Of a DNA stretch of 64,000 bases, positions 8,087 to 16,507 are shown piece after piece. Location of the stretch: positions 99,084 to 163,083 of the forward strand of contig JAJDUD010000024.1 of assembly GCA_022826825.1 (NCBI GenBank), read 5' to 3'. Position 1 is the first letter of the stretch. Every line of letters begins with the position of its first letter. This DNA is from Acidobacteriota bacterium (GTDB lineage Bacteria > Acidobacteriota > Vicinamibacteria > Marinacidobacterales > Marinacidobacteraceae). Both the position numbers and the translations under genes were made by a program. The notes beneath the pieces are model-generated. The model was given only the letters and a program-made list of their open reading frames with translations, searched no databases and was not told where the DNA came from.

Positions 8087-8094
8087 GACGCGCC

Positions 8095-8250
8095 GGCTTG
8101 GAACGCCGGCCTCCGGCCGGCACGCGGGCCGAAGGCCCGCAGGCGGTTCCACCCGAATCCGCATCGAGCGCGCCGGCAGGAAGCGCTAGGAGCGCAAGTA
8201 GCGCCGGTCGCCAGACCGGCGTCGCTGCGCGCAGCGCAGCGAAACTCCCG
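8095..8250. repeat. Dispersed palindromic repeats (one type A, one type B copy)
   Basis: Two hairpin-pair elements follow rpmB. The type A copy (8095-8145) starts GGCTTGGAACGCCGGCC and holds a GCCGGCC..GGCCGGC palindrome, then GCGGGCC..GGCCCGC. The type B copy (8201-8250) has CGCCGGTC..GACCGGCG, then a second GCTGCGC/GCGCAGC hairpin, and ends CGAAACTCCCG. Related copies occur near 16.56, 38.70, 50.90-51.09 and 54.52 kb. Confidence 0.75.
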
Positions 8251-11943: not shown

Positions 11944-12285
11944 ATGAGCCTGATGGGGCGCGCGCTGGGGACGCGGGCGCCGTTCGTGGCCGCGGGCCAG
12001 ATCGACGAGGTGCTGAGCGACGAGCAGGTCCTGCTGCTCGATGTACGCACGGCCCTCGAACTGGCCGAATCCGGGACCATCCCGGGAGCGGTCCATGTCC
12101 ATCTGGGAGAGTTGGCGGATCGGCTGGACGAACTGCCCCGGGACCGTCCGATCCTCACCACCTGAATGGTGGGACCACGGGCCGCGCGGGCCGCGGCCAT
12201 CCTGGAGACCGCCGGTTTCGAGGTTGTGGGTTTTTCCGGCCTCAAGCAATATACGGGCGCGCGGGAGTACCGCCCGCTCGACTGA
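11944..12285 (+). CDS. Selenocysteine-containing rhodanese-domain protein (cytosolic), TGA at 12163-12165 read as Sec
   Basis: Read through TGA 12163-12165, the frame gives 113 residues and stops at TGA 12283-12285. Residues ~17-73 are a rhodanese half (LLLDVRTALELAESGTIPGA, then DRPILTT). The TGA is codon 74, exactly where the catalytic cysteine sits, and it is followed by M-V-G-P-R, matching the CxxGxR loop with Cys replaced by Sec. The frame continues with AARAAAILETAGFEVVGF, the expected helix and strand. A hairpin at 12180-12198 could serve as SECIS. No signal peptide is seen. Rhodaneses move sulfane sulfur (or selenium) through a persulfide on this residue; Sec would form a selenide/perselenide. 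A decayed gene with a stop is the alternative, but the second gene repeats the pattern. Confidence 0.85.
12180..12198 (+). promoter_or_regulatory. Putative bacterial SECIS hairpin of the first selenorhodanese
   Basis: A 7-bp stem GGCCGCG/CGCGGCC closes a 5-base loop CGGGC (12187-12191). The loop begins 22 bases after the last base of the TGA at 12163-12165. Bacterial SECIS elements sit inside the coding region about 16-37 bases after the UGA and carry a G in the first two loop positions; both conditions are met. It would bind SelB. Confidence 0.65.
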
Positions 12286-12314
12286 TTTCCCATGGTTCCC
12301 ATAGGAGGTCCACG

Positions 12315-12746
12315 ATGAAGAGGACTCTTTTCTTCGCCGGGCCCGCCCTCGCCGCGCTGGCGCTCGGTTGCGGCGGTGGCGGCGAACCGGCCGCCGAGGA
12401 AGCGGCTGCCCCTGAAGCGGCGGCGCCCGAGCCGGCTCCCCGCGTCGAGGCGGCGGACATTGACGGCGCGCTCGCGAACGGCGCCGTGCTGCTCGACGTC
12501 CGCACCGACGAGGAACTCGCCGAGCACGGCACGATCGAGGGCTTCGTCCACATCCCGATCGACGAACTGGAGGCGAGGATGGCTGAACTCCCGGCTGGAG
12601 TTCCCGTCCTCACCGCTTGACAGGGTGGCGGAAGAGCCGCGCGTGCCGCGGAGCTGCTACAAGCGAACGGATACGAAGTCGTCGGGTTCTGTGGTCTGAG
12701 GGACTACGAGGGCGAGCGGGTGTACCCGGGCGCCGCTGACGAGTAA
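12315..12746 (+). CDS. Selenocysteine-containing rhodanese-domain lipoprotein, TGA at 12618-12620 read as Sec
   Basis: With TGA 12618-12620 as Sec102 the protein has 143 residues and stops at TAA 12744-12746. The N-terminus (MKRTLFFAGPALAALALGC) is a lipoprotein signal, with Cys19 followed by GGGGE and an Ala/Glu/Pro linker, so it is probably membrane-anchored in the periplasm. The rhodanese part has VLLDVRTDEELAEHGTIEGF, then GVPVLTA-Sec-Q-G-G-G-R-AARAAELL, again CxxGxR with Sec for Cys. Cys126 (VVGFCGLRDY), absent from the first gene, could act as a resolving residue. A strong AGGAGGT (12303-12309) precedes the ATG. It lies 29 bases after the first selenorhodanese and converges with senA. 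Confidence 0.86.
12637..12651 (+). promoter_or_regulatory. Putative bacterial SECIS hairpin of the second selenorhodanese
   Basis: A 5-bp stem CCGCG/CGCGG closes a loop CGTGC (12642-12646). The stem is the same as the inner stem of the first gene's hairpin, and the loop again begins 22 bases after the TGA. Below the stem, A12635-G12636 faces A12652-G12653 and could form a tandem G-A mismatch, followed by G12634-C12654. The G and U within the loop resemble known SelB-binding loops. Confidence 0.62.
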
Positions 12747-12756
12747 GCCCGAAGCG

Positions 12757-14052
12757 CTACAAACCCGCGGTCCGGAACCCCGCCATGATGTCGCGGCGGT
12801 CCGGACTGAAGAAGTTGCGATAGCGGCCGGTCAGCATCCGGCTGCGCGTCGCCCAGGCGCCGCCGCGCAGGACCTTGGTCTGCTGGAACTGGCTCTCCGA
12901 GTATTCCCGGTACGCATCGGGGCGGAATTCGGGAAACGGCTCGAACGTGTCCGCTGTCCACTCCCAGACGTTGCCGAGCATCTGCCGGCAACCGAAGGCG
13001 CTGTCGCCGTCCGGCAGCGCCCCGACCTCGACGCAGCCGAGCGTCCACCCGTCCAGATTCGCGTGCCGGGATTCGGGCAGCGCCTCGCCCCAGGGATAGG
13101 TCCGTTTCCGGGACGCCAGGCGGTTTCCGTCGGGTTCGCCGAGCGCCGCCGTCTCCCATTCGGCCTCGGTGGGAAGCCGCCGTCCCGCCCAGGCGCACCA
13201 GGCGTTCGCCTCGAACCAGTTGACGTGGATGACCGGCTCGTTCAGCGGCAGCGGCGCGGTCTCGTCGAAGCATCGCAACCGGAACGCGTCCGCTCCGTCG
13301 GAGAGCCAGTAGACGGGCCGGGGTGCCCCGGCCCGTTCCCGCCAGGCCCAGCCCGCGTCGCTCCAGAACTCCCGCTTCCGGTAACCCCCGGCATTGACGA
13401 ATTCGGCGAACTCCGCGTTCGTGACCGGCGCCTTCGCGATCGAAAACGGCCGCACGTCCACCGGATGCGCCCACTTCTCGTTGTCGTAGCAAAACGGCGC
13501 GTCCCGCTCCGCTCCCAGGCGGAAGGTCCCGCCCGGAACCCGGGCGTCGCCGGGACAACCGCCGGACGGTTCCCGGGAAAGACTCCGGCCCAGCCGCGGC
13601 GCCGGGTAGCCGAGAGTCTGCCGGGAATAGACGTATGCCTCGGTGTGCATGTCCTCGTGGAACGTGGCGAACTGGTACATGAAGCTGTCCCGCTCGCTCG
13701 CCGTGCCCGGACCGAGCCGTTCCAGGCAGCGGTCCTTGACGGTTTCGGCGTAGCGGATCGTTTCCTCCATGCCGAGCAGCGGGAGGTCCCAGCGCGTGTC
13801 CTGGAGGACGGCCGCCGAGTCGTACAGTTCGTCGGCTTGCCGCAGGATCGGGGCGTGGCCGTAGAGGTCGCGCAGAATGAAGTTCTCGTAGAACCACGCA
13901 ACGTGCCCGATCTCCCACCGCAACGGATTGACGATGGGCATCTGGGGCCCCATCAACTGGTTGTCGTCGAGGCCGACGGTCAGTGCGATGCTGCGCCGGT
14001 GAGCGTCTTCCATGATGGCGGCGAGATGATCGGCCGGAACACGCTGGGTCAT
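12757..14052 (-). CDS. senA: SenA-like selenoneine synthase (EgtB/SUMF1-type non-heme iron enzyme)
   Basis: This 431-residue protein has a DinB-like iron-binding N-terminal half and a formylglycine-generating-enzyme-like C-terminal half. Candidate facial-triad histidines are H50 (EIGHVAWFYENF), H132 and H136 (FHEDMHTEAY), placed almost as in EgtB. The C-terminal motifs GRRLPTEAEWE, GNVWEWT and VLRGGAW..RNFF are those of EgtB/OvoA/SenA. SenA joins selenium from a selenosugar to hercynine, and EgtB does the same with a sulfur donor. I choose SenA because the adjacent divergent gene is SenB-like and selenoprotein genes sit 10 bases away; EgtB is the alternative. The ATG at 14052 is 20 bases from the senB start; Met14 (14013) is a possible later start. 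Confidence 0.75.
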   Translation of the reverse strand: MTQRVPADHLAAIMEDAHRRSIALTVGLDDNQLMGPQMPIVNPLRWEIGHVAWFYENFILRDLYGHAPILRQADELYDSAAVLQDTRWDLPLLGMEETIRYAETVKDRCLERLGPGTASERDSFMYQFATFHEDMHTEAYVYSRQTLGYPAPRLGRSLSREPSGGCPGDARVPGGTFRLGAERDAPFCYDNEKWAHPVDVRPFSIAKAPVTNAEFAEFVNAGGYRKREFWSDAGWAWRERAGAPRPVYWLSDGADAFRLRCFDETAPLPLNEPVIHVNWFEANAWCAWAGRRLPTEAEWETAALGEPDGNRLASRKRTYPWGEALPESRHANLDGWTLGCVEVGALPDGDSAFGCRQMLGNVWEWTADTFEPFPEFRPDAYREYSESQFQQTKVLRGGAWATRSRMLTGRYRNFFSPDRRDIMAGFRTAGL

Positions 14053-14072
14053 GTTGGTGGCGGGGTTCGCCC

Positions 14073-15026
14073 GTGCGAATCATTCTAGTAACCCCCGCGG
14101 GCGCGAGGTCCCGCTTCGGCAACCGGATCACCGCGCGGCGCTGGGCGGCGGTGCTGCGGTCGCTCGGCCACCGGGTGGCCATCCAGACCGCGTGGAACGG
14201 CGCGTCCGCGGAGGTGCTGATCGCCCTCCACGCGTGGCGGAGCGCCGCTTCGATCCGCGGCTTCCGGGCGCGTTTTCCGACCCGTCCGCTGATCGTGGCG
14301 CTGACCGGGACGGACATCTACGGGTTCCTGCTCAGCGAGCCGGAGACCACCCGGAGGTCGCTCGAATGCGCCGACGTGCTGGTCGGGTTGCACGACCTGG
14401 CCGGGGAAGCGGTGCCGCCGGAATTCCGCGCCCGGGTTCGGGTGGTGCACCAGTCGGTTCCAGCCAGGAGCGTGACGCGCTGTCCCGTGAAACGGTCCTT
14501 CGACGTGTGCGTCGTGGGGCACCTCCGCCGGGAGAAGGATCCGCTGCGGGCGGCCGCGGCGGCGCGGGAGATGCCGGCGGACTCGCGCCTGCGGATTCTC
14601 CACGCCGGTGGGGCGCGGGATCCCGAGTGGGCCGAAGCGGCGCGCCACGAAATGGCTCGCAACCCGCGTTACCGGTGGCTGGGCGAAGTGCCGCCGTGGC
14701 GCGTGCGGCGGCTCTACGAACGGACGCACGCCATGGTGATCCCGTCGCTGGCGGAGGGCGGCGCCAACGTCGTGTCGGAAGCGGTGGTCGCCGGGCTGCC
14801 GGTGATCGCGTCCCGGATCCCCGGAAACGTCGGCCTGCTCGGTTCGGACCACCCGGCCTACTTCCCGCCCGGAGATACGGGGGCGCTCCGGGCTCTCCTG
14901 CGGCGGGGGGAGAGCGATCCCGAATTCCTCGCGGAGCTCACCCGGCACGGCGCCCGGCGGGCGCCGCTCTTCGCTCCCGAGCGTGAGCGCGAGGGCTGGC
15001 GCCGGTTACTCGATGAGCTTCGGTGA
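14073..15026 (+). CDS. senB: SenB-like selenosugar synthase (GT-B glycosyltransferase family)
   Basis: This 317-residue protein starts at GTG 14073. Its N-terminus (RIILVTPAGARSRFGNRITA, then RRWAAVLRSLGHRV) matches the TIGR04348/SenB glycosyltransferase signature, including the GNRxTAxRWAxxLxxLGH motif. The C-terminal donor-sugar region has SLAEGGANVVSEAVVAG, then GLPVIASRIPGNVGLLG, again typical. SenB transfers a sugar from a UDP-sugar to selenophosphate to give the selenosugar used by SenA. The selenophosphate synthase (SenC/SelD) and hercynine-forming EgtD are not in the window. No good ribosome-binding site is visible. It is divergent from senA and convergent with the M24-like gene. Confidence 0.82.
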   Translation: MRIILVTPAGARSRFGNRITARRWAAVLRSLGHRVAIQTAWNGASAEVLIALHAWRSAASIRGFRARFPTRPLIVALTGTDIYGFLLSEPETTRRSLECADVLVGLHDLAGEAVPPEFRARVRVVHQSVPARSVTRCPVKRSFDVCVVGHLRREKDPLRAAAAAREMPADSRLRILHAGGARDPEWAEAARHEMARNPRYRWLGEVPPWRVRRLYERTHAMVIPSLAEGGANVVSEAVVAGLPVIASRIPGNVGLLGSDHPAYFPPGDTGALRALLRRGESDPEFLAELTRHGARRAPLFAPEREREGWRRLLDELR

Positions 15027-15037
15027 CCCGGTCGTGA

Positions 15038-16507
15038 TCAGTTGATGAGGTAGATCTTCTCGTTCGGCGGCTGGAGCCACTCGATGCCCTTGCTGGTCAC
15101 GACGTGCGGGTTCGAGATGTTGATCGCCAGGGGGAACCCGGGCCGTTCCGGGATGTTCATGTGCACCATGTACTCGTACGCGAAGAGGTGGTTCTCCTGG
15201 ATCACCAGGTGGTGCCGGTCGGCGCGGAAGTTGGTCACCGAGGGACCGACGGTGCCGGTGCCCACGGTGCCGTAGGCGTGGTGGTCGATGGCGAAACCCG
15301 GCTGGTCGCCGTCGCCGAGCCCCTCCTGGATGATCACGTAGTCGAGGTTCCTTTCGCCGTCGGGGGTCCGGCCGATCCCCTGGATTCCGGAGTTGACGAA
15401 CGGCGTGTAGATGTAGCCGGCCTCCTCCATGGCCGCGACCATGGCGTCGAGCGACTCCTTGGCCGTCATGCCCACCCGCATGTGGGGCCGCATGATCCAC
15501 TGGCCGGCGATCGCGAGGTCGAACAGCTTCTGGATGCTCTCCGGAGGGGCGGTCTCGCCCTCGCGCAGGATGTAGGCGTGGGTCTTGGTGTCGGTGCCGA
15601 AGCCCATGTAGTTGACCCCGACGTTGAAGGCGAAGAAATCGCCGCGCTGAAAGACGTAGTCCTCGTGCCAGATCCAGTAGCGGGCGTCCGGCGGATAGGG
15701 CGGGTCTTCGGATACCGCGGTGTAGTAGAGGCGGATGCCGCCCCGTCCCCCGGTGCTGAATCCGGCCAGGTGGCGGTCGTAGGCCCACTCCCGGGCCCAG
15801 GTGGTGATCTCCCGGATCGTGGTGCGCCCCGGCTCGATCCGGGCCAGGGCCTCCTGGGTGAGTTGGCGGGCGGCCTCGAGGTTGTTGATCTGCTCGGCCA
15901 CCTCGCGGACCGTTCGCCGCACCAGGAAGTCGTTGACGACGTTCTCCGCGGAGACGATCCGCTCGACGTAGGTGGGCCCGAGGATCTTCACCAGCTTCAA
16001 CCAGGAGGTGTGCGACAACCCGTCGGCCTCGGCGAGCCACTCGGAGGTGTTCACGGCGATGGTCTGCGGGTCGCGCTCGGCGACGAACTCGGTGAACTCG
16101 TCGTAGACCTCGTCGCCGTAGTTGAACGCCATCTGGTAGCCGCGGCCGTAGCTGGAGATGGTCCGGGCGAAATCGTCGGAACCCCGGACGTCGATGTCCT
16201 CGACCGCGCCGGCGCTCCCGAAGGCGGCCCGCTCGATCCGGTCGCCGAGGTCGGTGAAGACGAGGTAGCCGTAGGTGTTGCCGAACCAGTAGGCCATCGG
16301 GTCCGGGTCGCCGTGGCGGGTGACGTGGATCCACATGTCCACGCCGTTGTCGCGCATGGCGCCCGGCAGGATCAGATCGAGCTTGTCTTGCCGAAGGAGG
16401 CGCATGACCTCGCCCCCGCTGCGGGAGGAGTGGACGCCGGGCTGGGCGGTTGCGAAGGTGGCCGCGAGCAGCAGCGCGATCAGGATGGATGGGGTTCGAA
16501 CGGGCAT
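15038..16507 (-). CDS. Exported M24 (aminopeptidase P/creatinase-fold) protein with altered metal site
   Basis: This 489-residue protein has a signal peptide (MPVRTPSILIALLLAATFATAQ). The C-terminal two thirds resemble the pita-bread fold of Xaa-Pro aminopeptidases: TIREITTWAREWAYDRHLAGF, then FFAFNVGVNYMGFGTDTKTHAY. By alignment from memory the first metal Asp is Asn (FNVGVNY) and the last Glu appears replaced (INISNPHVV), whereas the second Asp (GTD), a His region (DHHAYG) and one Glu (FAYEYM) remain. Activity is therefore uncertain; it could be a distinct subfamily or a binding protein. Its gene end lies 11 bases from that of senB. The start is set by the signal peptide. Confidence 0.75.
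   Translation of the reverse strand: MPVRTPSILIALLLAATFATAQPGVHSSRSGGEVMRLLRQDKLDLILPGAMRDNGVDMWIHVTRHGDPDPMAYWFGNTYGYLVFTDLGDRIERAAFGSAGAVEDIDVRGSDDFARTISSYGRGYQMAFNYGDEVYDEFTEFVAERDPQTIAVNTSEWLAEADGLSHTSWLKLVKILGPTYVERIVSAENVVNDFLVRRTVREVAEQINNLEAARQLTQEALARIEPGRTTIREITTWAREWAYDRHLAGFSTGGRGGIRLYYTAVSEDPPYPPDARYWIWHEDYVFQRGDFFAFNVGVNYMGFGTDTKTHAYILREGETAPPESIQKLFDLAIAGQWIMRPHMRVGMTAKESLDAMVAAMEEAGYIYTPFVNSGIQGIGRTPDGERNLDYVIIQEGLGDGDQPGFAIDHHAYGTVGTGTVGPSVTNFRADRHHLVIQENHLFAYEYMVHMNIPERPGFPLAINISNPHVVTSKGIEWLQPPNEKIYLIN

Follow-up and report, generated by a model that had tools for sequence, protein, structure and literature searches.

Does a pair of rhodaneses predicted to carry selenocysteine (Sec) serve the selenoneine pathway beside whose genes it lies? 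The question is raised by a 64,000-nucleotide (nt) stretch of an Acidobacteriota genome (GCA_022826825.1, contig JAJDUD010000024.1, positions 99,084-163,083, forward strand), which we call the window and whose positions serve as coordinates below. A preliminary description had placed four selenium genes here, two rhodaneses (rhod1 and rhod2) followed by senA and senB, and our analysis recovers all four where it put them. On balance we tentatively favour the reading that rhod1 and rhod2 form a Sec-dependent persulfide or redox pair, beside which the sen genes likely arrived later in this genus. The features are as follows, SECIS standing for selenocysteine insertion sequence and U for Sec.

11944..12285, + strand: rhod1, 113-aa single-domain rhodanese of cytosolic type, U-MVGPR (PF00581, 46.7 bits)
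12163..12165, + strand: in-frame TGA of rhod1, predicted Sec (sequence and alignment A1)
12163..12210, + strand: SECIS-like hairpin of rhod1 (7-bp stem 12180-12186/12192-12198, 5-nt loop, 21 nt from TGA to loop; 7/7 pairs)
12315..12746, + strand: rhod2, 143-aa rhodanese, lipoprotein-like signal, U-QGGGR, second Cys in FCGL (PF00581, 43.0 bits)
12618..12620, + strand: in-frame TGA of rhod2, predicted Sec (sequence and alignment A1)
12618..12665, + strand: SECIS-like hairpin of rhod2, of which the inner 5 of 7 pairs form
12757..14052, - strand: senA, selenoneine synthase family (NF041186, 482 bits, cut-off 420)
14073..15026, + strand: senB, selenium glycosyltransferase family (TIGR04348, 411 bits, cut-off 300)

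The in-frame TGA codons

Once the TGA is read through, both rhodaneses exceed the PF00581 cut-off of 22.2 bits, rhod1 ending at a further TGA and rhod2 at a TAA. The preliminary description had them as two neighbouring rhodaneses with the TGA at the catalytic Cys of a CxxGxR motif, and we find this to hold by sequence, by conservation and by the ratio of nonsynonymous to synonymous substitution (dN/dS). TGA stands at the same codon in 33/33 aligned genes from 24 loci, a set that was selected for a flagged TGA and so shows the position of the codon, not its frequency. In 58 named loci fetched by peptide pattern irrespective of TGA, the site reads TGA in 63 of the 66 rhodanese segments and TGC in two, the remaining segment lacking the motif. 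Moreover, when the family profile was run against 396 genomes of the phylum, its 15 top matches (in 14 genomes) each had exactly one TGA; none of the weaker matches listed had one, and a single-sequence search added one weaker match, in genome G095. Six further genomes of the genus hold rhod1 at 87-96% identity with one TGA each, and of the four rhodanese domains that exceed the cut-off in the window's own genome (two of them in one frame on contig C27), rhod1 and rhod2 are the sole TGA carriers.

That the TGAs are ordinary stops, with decayed or separate frames downstream, agrees with where gene callers end these genes, and we found nothing further in its favour. Against it, among seven genus genomes (21 pairs for each gene) dN/dS after the TGA was 0.075 for rhod1 and 0.063 for rhod2, values of 0.082 and 0.113 being obtained before it, while the two other frames after the TGA gave 2.4 to 4.9. 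The TGA is also kept across families, and the hairpin that follows it covaries, so that we regard ordinary stops as scarcely credible. In fact the convention of stopping there has hidden the family from ordinary annotation, since 119 of the 120 rhod2 database relatives listed (126 found) end at the Sec codon, at about 100 aa and without the catalytic half. The remaining one, P0103 (149 aa), carries Cys at the site and alone among those listed has a rhodanese Pfam domain.

The hairpin has a 7-bp stem and 5-nt loop and starts 14 nt past the TGA, which puts the loop 21 nt from it. Its covariation score was 0.261 against 0.092 (sd 0.019) in shuffles that do not correct for relatedness, and four pairs change on both sides among 31 distinct rows. 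Part of this signal comes from repeated RA.RAA codons, because slid frames keep some of it: a slide of +3 still scores 0.120, and one of -3 leaves 70% paired cells. The 33 TGA genes average 5.6 of the 7 pairs vs 3.2 in 29 Cys homologues, a control that is not codon-matched and mostly lacks the RA.RAA codons. Six rows (G234, G218, G140, G266, G095 and G077) match the 7-pair model badly, with 3-5 pairs, and the lowest-energy fold of rhod2 as a single sequence is another structure. Since folding energy over 54 nt counted from the TGA is indistinct from mononucleotide shuffles (z -2.1 to 1.2, 33 rows), support for the hairpin comes from covariation. Bacterial SECIS elements are described as having a 3-9 nt apical loop, a 4-16 bp stem, a G at loop position 1 or 2 and a distance of 16-37 nt from the UGA (PMC13188914, in the part of the text available). 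Compared on geometry alone, both genes fall within these ranges with 21 nt each: rhod1 has a 7-bp stem and the loop CGGGC, while rhod2 forms 5 inner pairs around the loop CGTGC.

Additional support comes from the genome itself, which encodes a tRNA-Sec over the gathering score, SelB (best E 1e-89) and SelD. From the conserved TGA site, the purifying selection past it, the covarying hairpin and this machinery, we predict that UGA at the rhodanese catalytic codon is read as Sec.

Two compartments and a second cysteine

The Sec/Cys, Gly and Arg of the CxxGxR-type active loop are invariant in alignments A2 and A3. Rhod1 and rhod2 are about 54% identical over their matched part and differ in destination: the rhod2 N-terminus is lipoprotein-like (LALGC, a lipobox by eye), with a loose lipobox pattern in 112 of the 120 database relatives listed, and rhod1 has no signal peptide by eye. 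In our tree the two are neighbours inside a well-supported 13-row set (99/95). Given that this is neighbour placement, with weak support for a sister relation (83/31) and a long rhod1 branch, we regard a tandem duplication in which one copy changed compartment as likely. Another type of TGA rhodanese, with the motif U-AVGGR and a long C-terminal part that is ferritin-like by eye, was seen in two genomes of the order (G406, contig C425, L136:7680-7925; G407, contig C56, L137:8468-8776); these two genes stand in A1 and were excluded from A2, A3 and the tree.

Beyond the loop, we observe a second Cys in an FCGL-like motif in 44/48 rows of A3, the exceptions being two rhod1 rows with Ser and two others with Gly. 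It occurs in 0/19 aligned Cys homologues, a further 13 homologues being gapped there. In an AlphaFold model (pLDDT 83, pTM 0.70) strand 69-73 has Sec at its end and the second Cys lies in strand 93-98. The strands that bear these two residues would be neighbours in the rhodanese fold, and for this reason an Se-S bond between them is plausible on the model.

How might such proteins work? On the reading that we favour, Sec would be inserted at both catalytic codons, and cytosolic rhod1 and membrane-anchored rhod2 would act as a pair. Sec would pick up a sulfane sulfur or selenium, as in the usual first step of rhodaneses, so that the catalytic residue would carry a persulfide or perselenide; in rhod2 the Cys of the neighbouring strand could then resolve it, bonding to Sec and releasing the atom. 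This would make rhod2 a persulfide/polysulfide (or perselenide) reductase, beyond a mere transferase, while rhod1, whose second position is Ser in 6/7 genus genomes, may instead hand the atom to a partner.

A Sec and Cys pair that is found in the Sec family, with the Cys absent from the 19 aligned Cys homologues, would also suit peroxidases or thiol-disulfide redox enzymes built on a rhodanese scaffold, in which Sec reacts with peroxide and forms a selenenylsulfide with the Cys, no sulfane sulfur being involved. Antioxidant defence is the role of nearly every selenoprotein whose function is known, according to the part of a review available (PMC9312934). Such an enzyme nonetheless seems to us on the unlikely side, as the invariant Gly and Arg of the active loop speak against it, and so does the persulfide chemistry of several of the closest solved relatives. 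Specifically, the rhodanese domains of CoA-disulfide, CoA-persulfide and NADH persulfide reductases (3icr, 3nta, 8a56) are among the best matches both by sequence and by structure, although these carry Cys and are fused to a flavin oxidoreductase, whereas rhod1 and rhod2 carry predicted Sec and stand alone. The first row of the solved-chain sequence matches is a Francisella tandem rhodanese, 6mxv.

Among described rhodanese selenoproteins, UxxG forms have already been predicted, as 'rhodanese-like domain-containing protein' forms 2 and 4 (PF00581; PMC13188914), and a 'rhodanese-related sulfurtransferase' is listed among Sargasso Sea selenoproteins (PMC1088965). Rhod1 and rhod2 resemble forms 2 and 4 (MBM9537886.1 and MCY3690685.1) in having a rhodanese domain with a predicted Sec in UxxG (here UMVG and UQGG), a likeness drawn from motif and description. 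Unlike those entries, which in the accessible parts of both papers come without function or context, they form a tandem lipoprotein/cytosolic pair with a second Cys and linkage to senA and senB. NF041203 (CxU type) and TsoB (NF045694) are likewise rhodanese selenoproteins. We rejected membership in NF041203 (rhodanese_LYCAU), for which rhod1 scores 25.6 vs a cut-off of 115 and has another Sec motif and rhod2 is not listed; NF045694 was not among the matches at E 0.001. What is new is the lipoprotein/cytosolic pair, the second Cys (44/48 family rows, 0/19 aligned Cys homologues) and the genus-wide sen linkage.

The sen genes and their linkage to the rhodanese pair

The identities that the preliminary description gave to senA and senB are borne out, each product scoring above its curated model cut-off (values listed above). 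SenA scores 323 bits against the EgtB model, below that model's 360, and its nearest solved chains by single-sequence comparison are OvsA (295 bits), EgtB (282) and SenA (205). Because OvsA and EgtB outrank solved SenA, we take its assignment to an exact substrate and product as provisional. SenB aligns with solved SenB (8jjn, 8fbx and 8k5u) and, against the solved Variovorax enzyme, keeps the N..T pair, the lysine of GHLRxxK and EGGA; roles have been given to N20/T23, K158 and E231 (PMC10891094, as far as available), and the GHLRxxK lysine is taken to be K158, the numbering having been matched by us. EgtB and EgtD adjoin on contig C29 (456.8 and 329 bits), and EgtD would supply hercynine. An EgtD match accompanies SenA in 11/11 genomes with SenA over the cut-off (14 order genomes examined), that of G396 being a contig-end fragment below the cut-off. 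SelD lies on contig C16, outside the sen locus (the window is on C51), and is fused behind a pyridine-nucleotide-disulfide oxidoreductase domain (L238:3367-5703(-), TIGR03169 363.5 bits) with CGGCAAK kept; against TIGR04369, 'oxidoreductase/SelD-related fusion', it reaches 408, below the cut-off of 700. In common with the SenA-SenB-SenC pathway, to judge from the parts of its descriptions available (PMC10702425, PMC10891094), the genome has SenA and SenB over their cut-offs, SelD and EgtD; it departs from that pathway in the fused SelD on another contig, in the divergent senA and senB, and in the two selenorhodaneses alongside. We consider it likely from the family assignments that senA and senB make selenoneine.

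Two further observations concern sen genes elsewhere. The senB of another genus has, in each of its two genomes (G011 and G052), an in-frame TGA at codon 4 (MRI-U-IVTPAPPG), a position at which two other SenBs have Cys (MKICMVTPAPP and MKICLITPAPP). The TGA is followed by a hairpin whose GG-containing loop lies about 20 nt past it, with energy z of only -1.1 and -0.9, and these SenBs are candidate selenoproteins:

L157, 8340-9263, - strand: TGA-bearing senB
L159, from 1975, + strand: TGA-bearing senB

In G253 and G041 (L153, L154) SenA is over the cut-off and a genome search at E 1e-30 gives no SenB; these two would thus hold a SenA-like enzyme without a selenosugar synthase.

The preliminary description had proposed that the selenorhodaneses and the sen genes act together, for instance by delivering selenium, and had looked to co-location in other genomes. 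This part stood within the genus: the order PD40-rhod1-rhod2-senA(-)-senB(+)-M24 is found in 7/8 genomes, with M14 before PD40 in 6 of the 7. In the eighth, G399, the flanking genes reach the ends of contigs C182 (88,068 bases) and C122 (27,835 bases), and since the contigs end there on both sides that genome is uninformative on linkage. The gene that closes this order adjoins senB in 7 genus genomes:

15038..16507, - strand: M24-type peptidase-like gene (PF00557, 33.8 bits)

Outside the genus co-location failed. Sen genes occur in the available flank of 6/58 named loci, all six of the window's genus, leaving 52/58 without; these genus loci are metagenome-assembled genomes (MAGs), whose isolate names we take to point to marine sponges. 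None of the 37 other sen loci contains a selenorhodanese (0/37); one of them (G219, L171:7261-7500(-)) has, at about 0.9 kb from senA, a Cys rhodanese fused to a part that is ArsR-like by eye. Both TGA rhodaneses are present in G403 and G404, single MAGs (87 and 92% complete) that represent two further genera of the family; neither yields a SenB at E 1e-30 or shows an EgtD, and their SenA-model matches reach only ~275 bits (below the cut-off). In G404 the order M14-rhod1-rhod2-AT1-AT2 marks the same chromosomal place without sen, M24 or PD40; its relatives of M24 and PD40 sit on other contigs, as does the M24-type gene of G403. In the order genomes G405-G408, SenA and SenB are on different contigs (the SenB of G406 just under the cut-off), and the TGA rhodaneses of G406 and G407 lie on yet other contigs than their sen genes.

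Within the window, a shared transcript is possible only for rhod1 and rhod2; rhod2 and senA are convergent, so that the rhodaneses have no common operon with senA, and senA and senB are divergent with starts 20 bp apart. Scans for promoters and terminators found nothing, and GC content reveals no island at the sen genes. The SenB tree gathers the genus into one clade (SH-aLRT 100) apart from same-order sen genes (f89), its deeper forks being weak, a placement that fits transfer. Elsewhere in the window, about 50 bases at 8093-8147 match dozens of sites in the relatives G397 and G399, as a dispersed short repeat.

Genome-level association is another matter. Among the 396 phylum genomes, 30 have SenB over the cut-off, 14 a listed selenorhodanese and 8 both, so that SenB occurs in 8/14 selenorhodanese genomes vs 22/382 others (Fisher p 9e-7, odds ratio 22). 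The excess persists among SelB-positive genomes (254, with 26 SenB, 12 selenorhodanese and 6 both; 6/12 vs 20/242, p 4e-4, odds ratio 11) and by family (5/8 vs 14/80, p 0.01, odds ratio 7.9), in tests that ignore shared ancestry and assembly gaps and have no other selenoprotein as control. Of the 8 co-occurring genomes, only the window's own has both genes on one contig.

Function of the pair and meaning of the locus

If the selenorhodaneses served the sen pathway, they could pass perselenide to SelD or SenB, or reduce oxidised selenoneine after SenA. The residual SenB co-occurrence speaks for such coupling, as does the existence of EanB, the anaerobic ergothioneine synthase, which in the accessible text has a rhodanese fold, a catalytic persulfide and the same precursor as SenA (PMC10903977); on these two grounds we keep it in play, as unlikely. 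EanB membership itself we rejected, leaving fold similarity only, as the solved EanB chains have 425-431 residues (~430 expected) and the single domains of rhod1 and rhod2 have 113 and 143. What tells against coupling is the pair without sen in both other sampled genera of the family, the preponderance of loci holding one partner without the other, the convergence of rhod2 and senA, and the lipoprotein-like signal of rhod2, the Sen proteins having none by eye. A functional link of the selenorhodaneses to the sen genes is therefore weakly supported. The preliminary description knew of no system joining Sec rhodaneses to sen, and by title and abstract we too find none among the open-access papers that our searches listed.

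A more elaborate version is a selenium circuit, in which cytosolic rhod1 would hold perselenide on its Sec and pass it to the oxidoreductase/SelD fusion for selenophosphate to SenB and Sec-tRNA, while lipoprotein rhod2 would reduce or recapture the selenium of oxidised selenoneine in the envelope, the genus having joined the parts into one locus. This is a long shot, yet if true it would be a case of selenocysteine itself handling selenium.

Because pair and sen travel together as neighbours in one genus only, we return to the tentatively favoured persulfide/redox pair, whose own function in sulfane-sulfur or redox chemistry would be older, the sen genes having probably been inserted next to it in this genus and the linkage perhaps selected, perhaps not. 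Several points weigh against this. The other genera may instead have lost sen, with no gain in this one, and the raised SenB co-occurrence points to some link that it does not explain. With Ser at the second position of rhod1 (Cys in G396), the two-residue mechanism cannot hold for rhod1, and the nearness of Sec and Cys, plausible in the predicted model, is judged from the placement of their strands. The literature searched held no biochemistry of the family. Clustering of the open reading frames within 6 kb at 53 loci found no recurrent sulfur or selenium neighbour, only near-relative synteny (a 17-locus pass likewise), which makes the substrate a guess; of the 52 loci besides L243, 20 extend for at least 5 kb to either side (flanks totalling 631 kb), and with so few long flanks links on short contigs could be missed.

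In reviews, as far as their text is available, selenorhodaneses figure as predicted list entries without function. The present locus offers a family in which Sec is nearly universal, a proposed Sec-Cys mechanism that can be tested, and a genus that keeps the family's genes fixed beside those of selenoneine.

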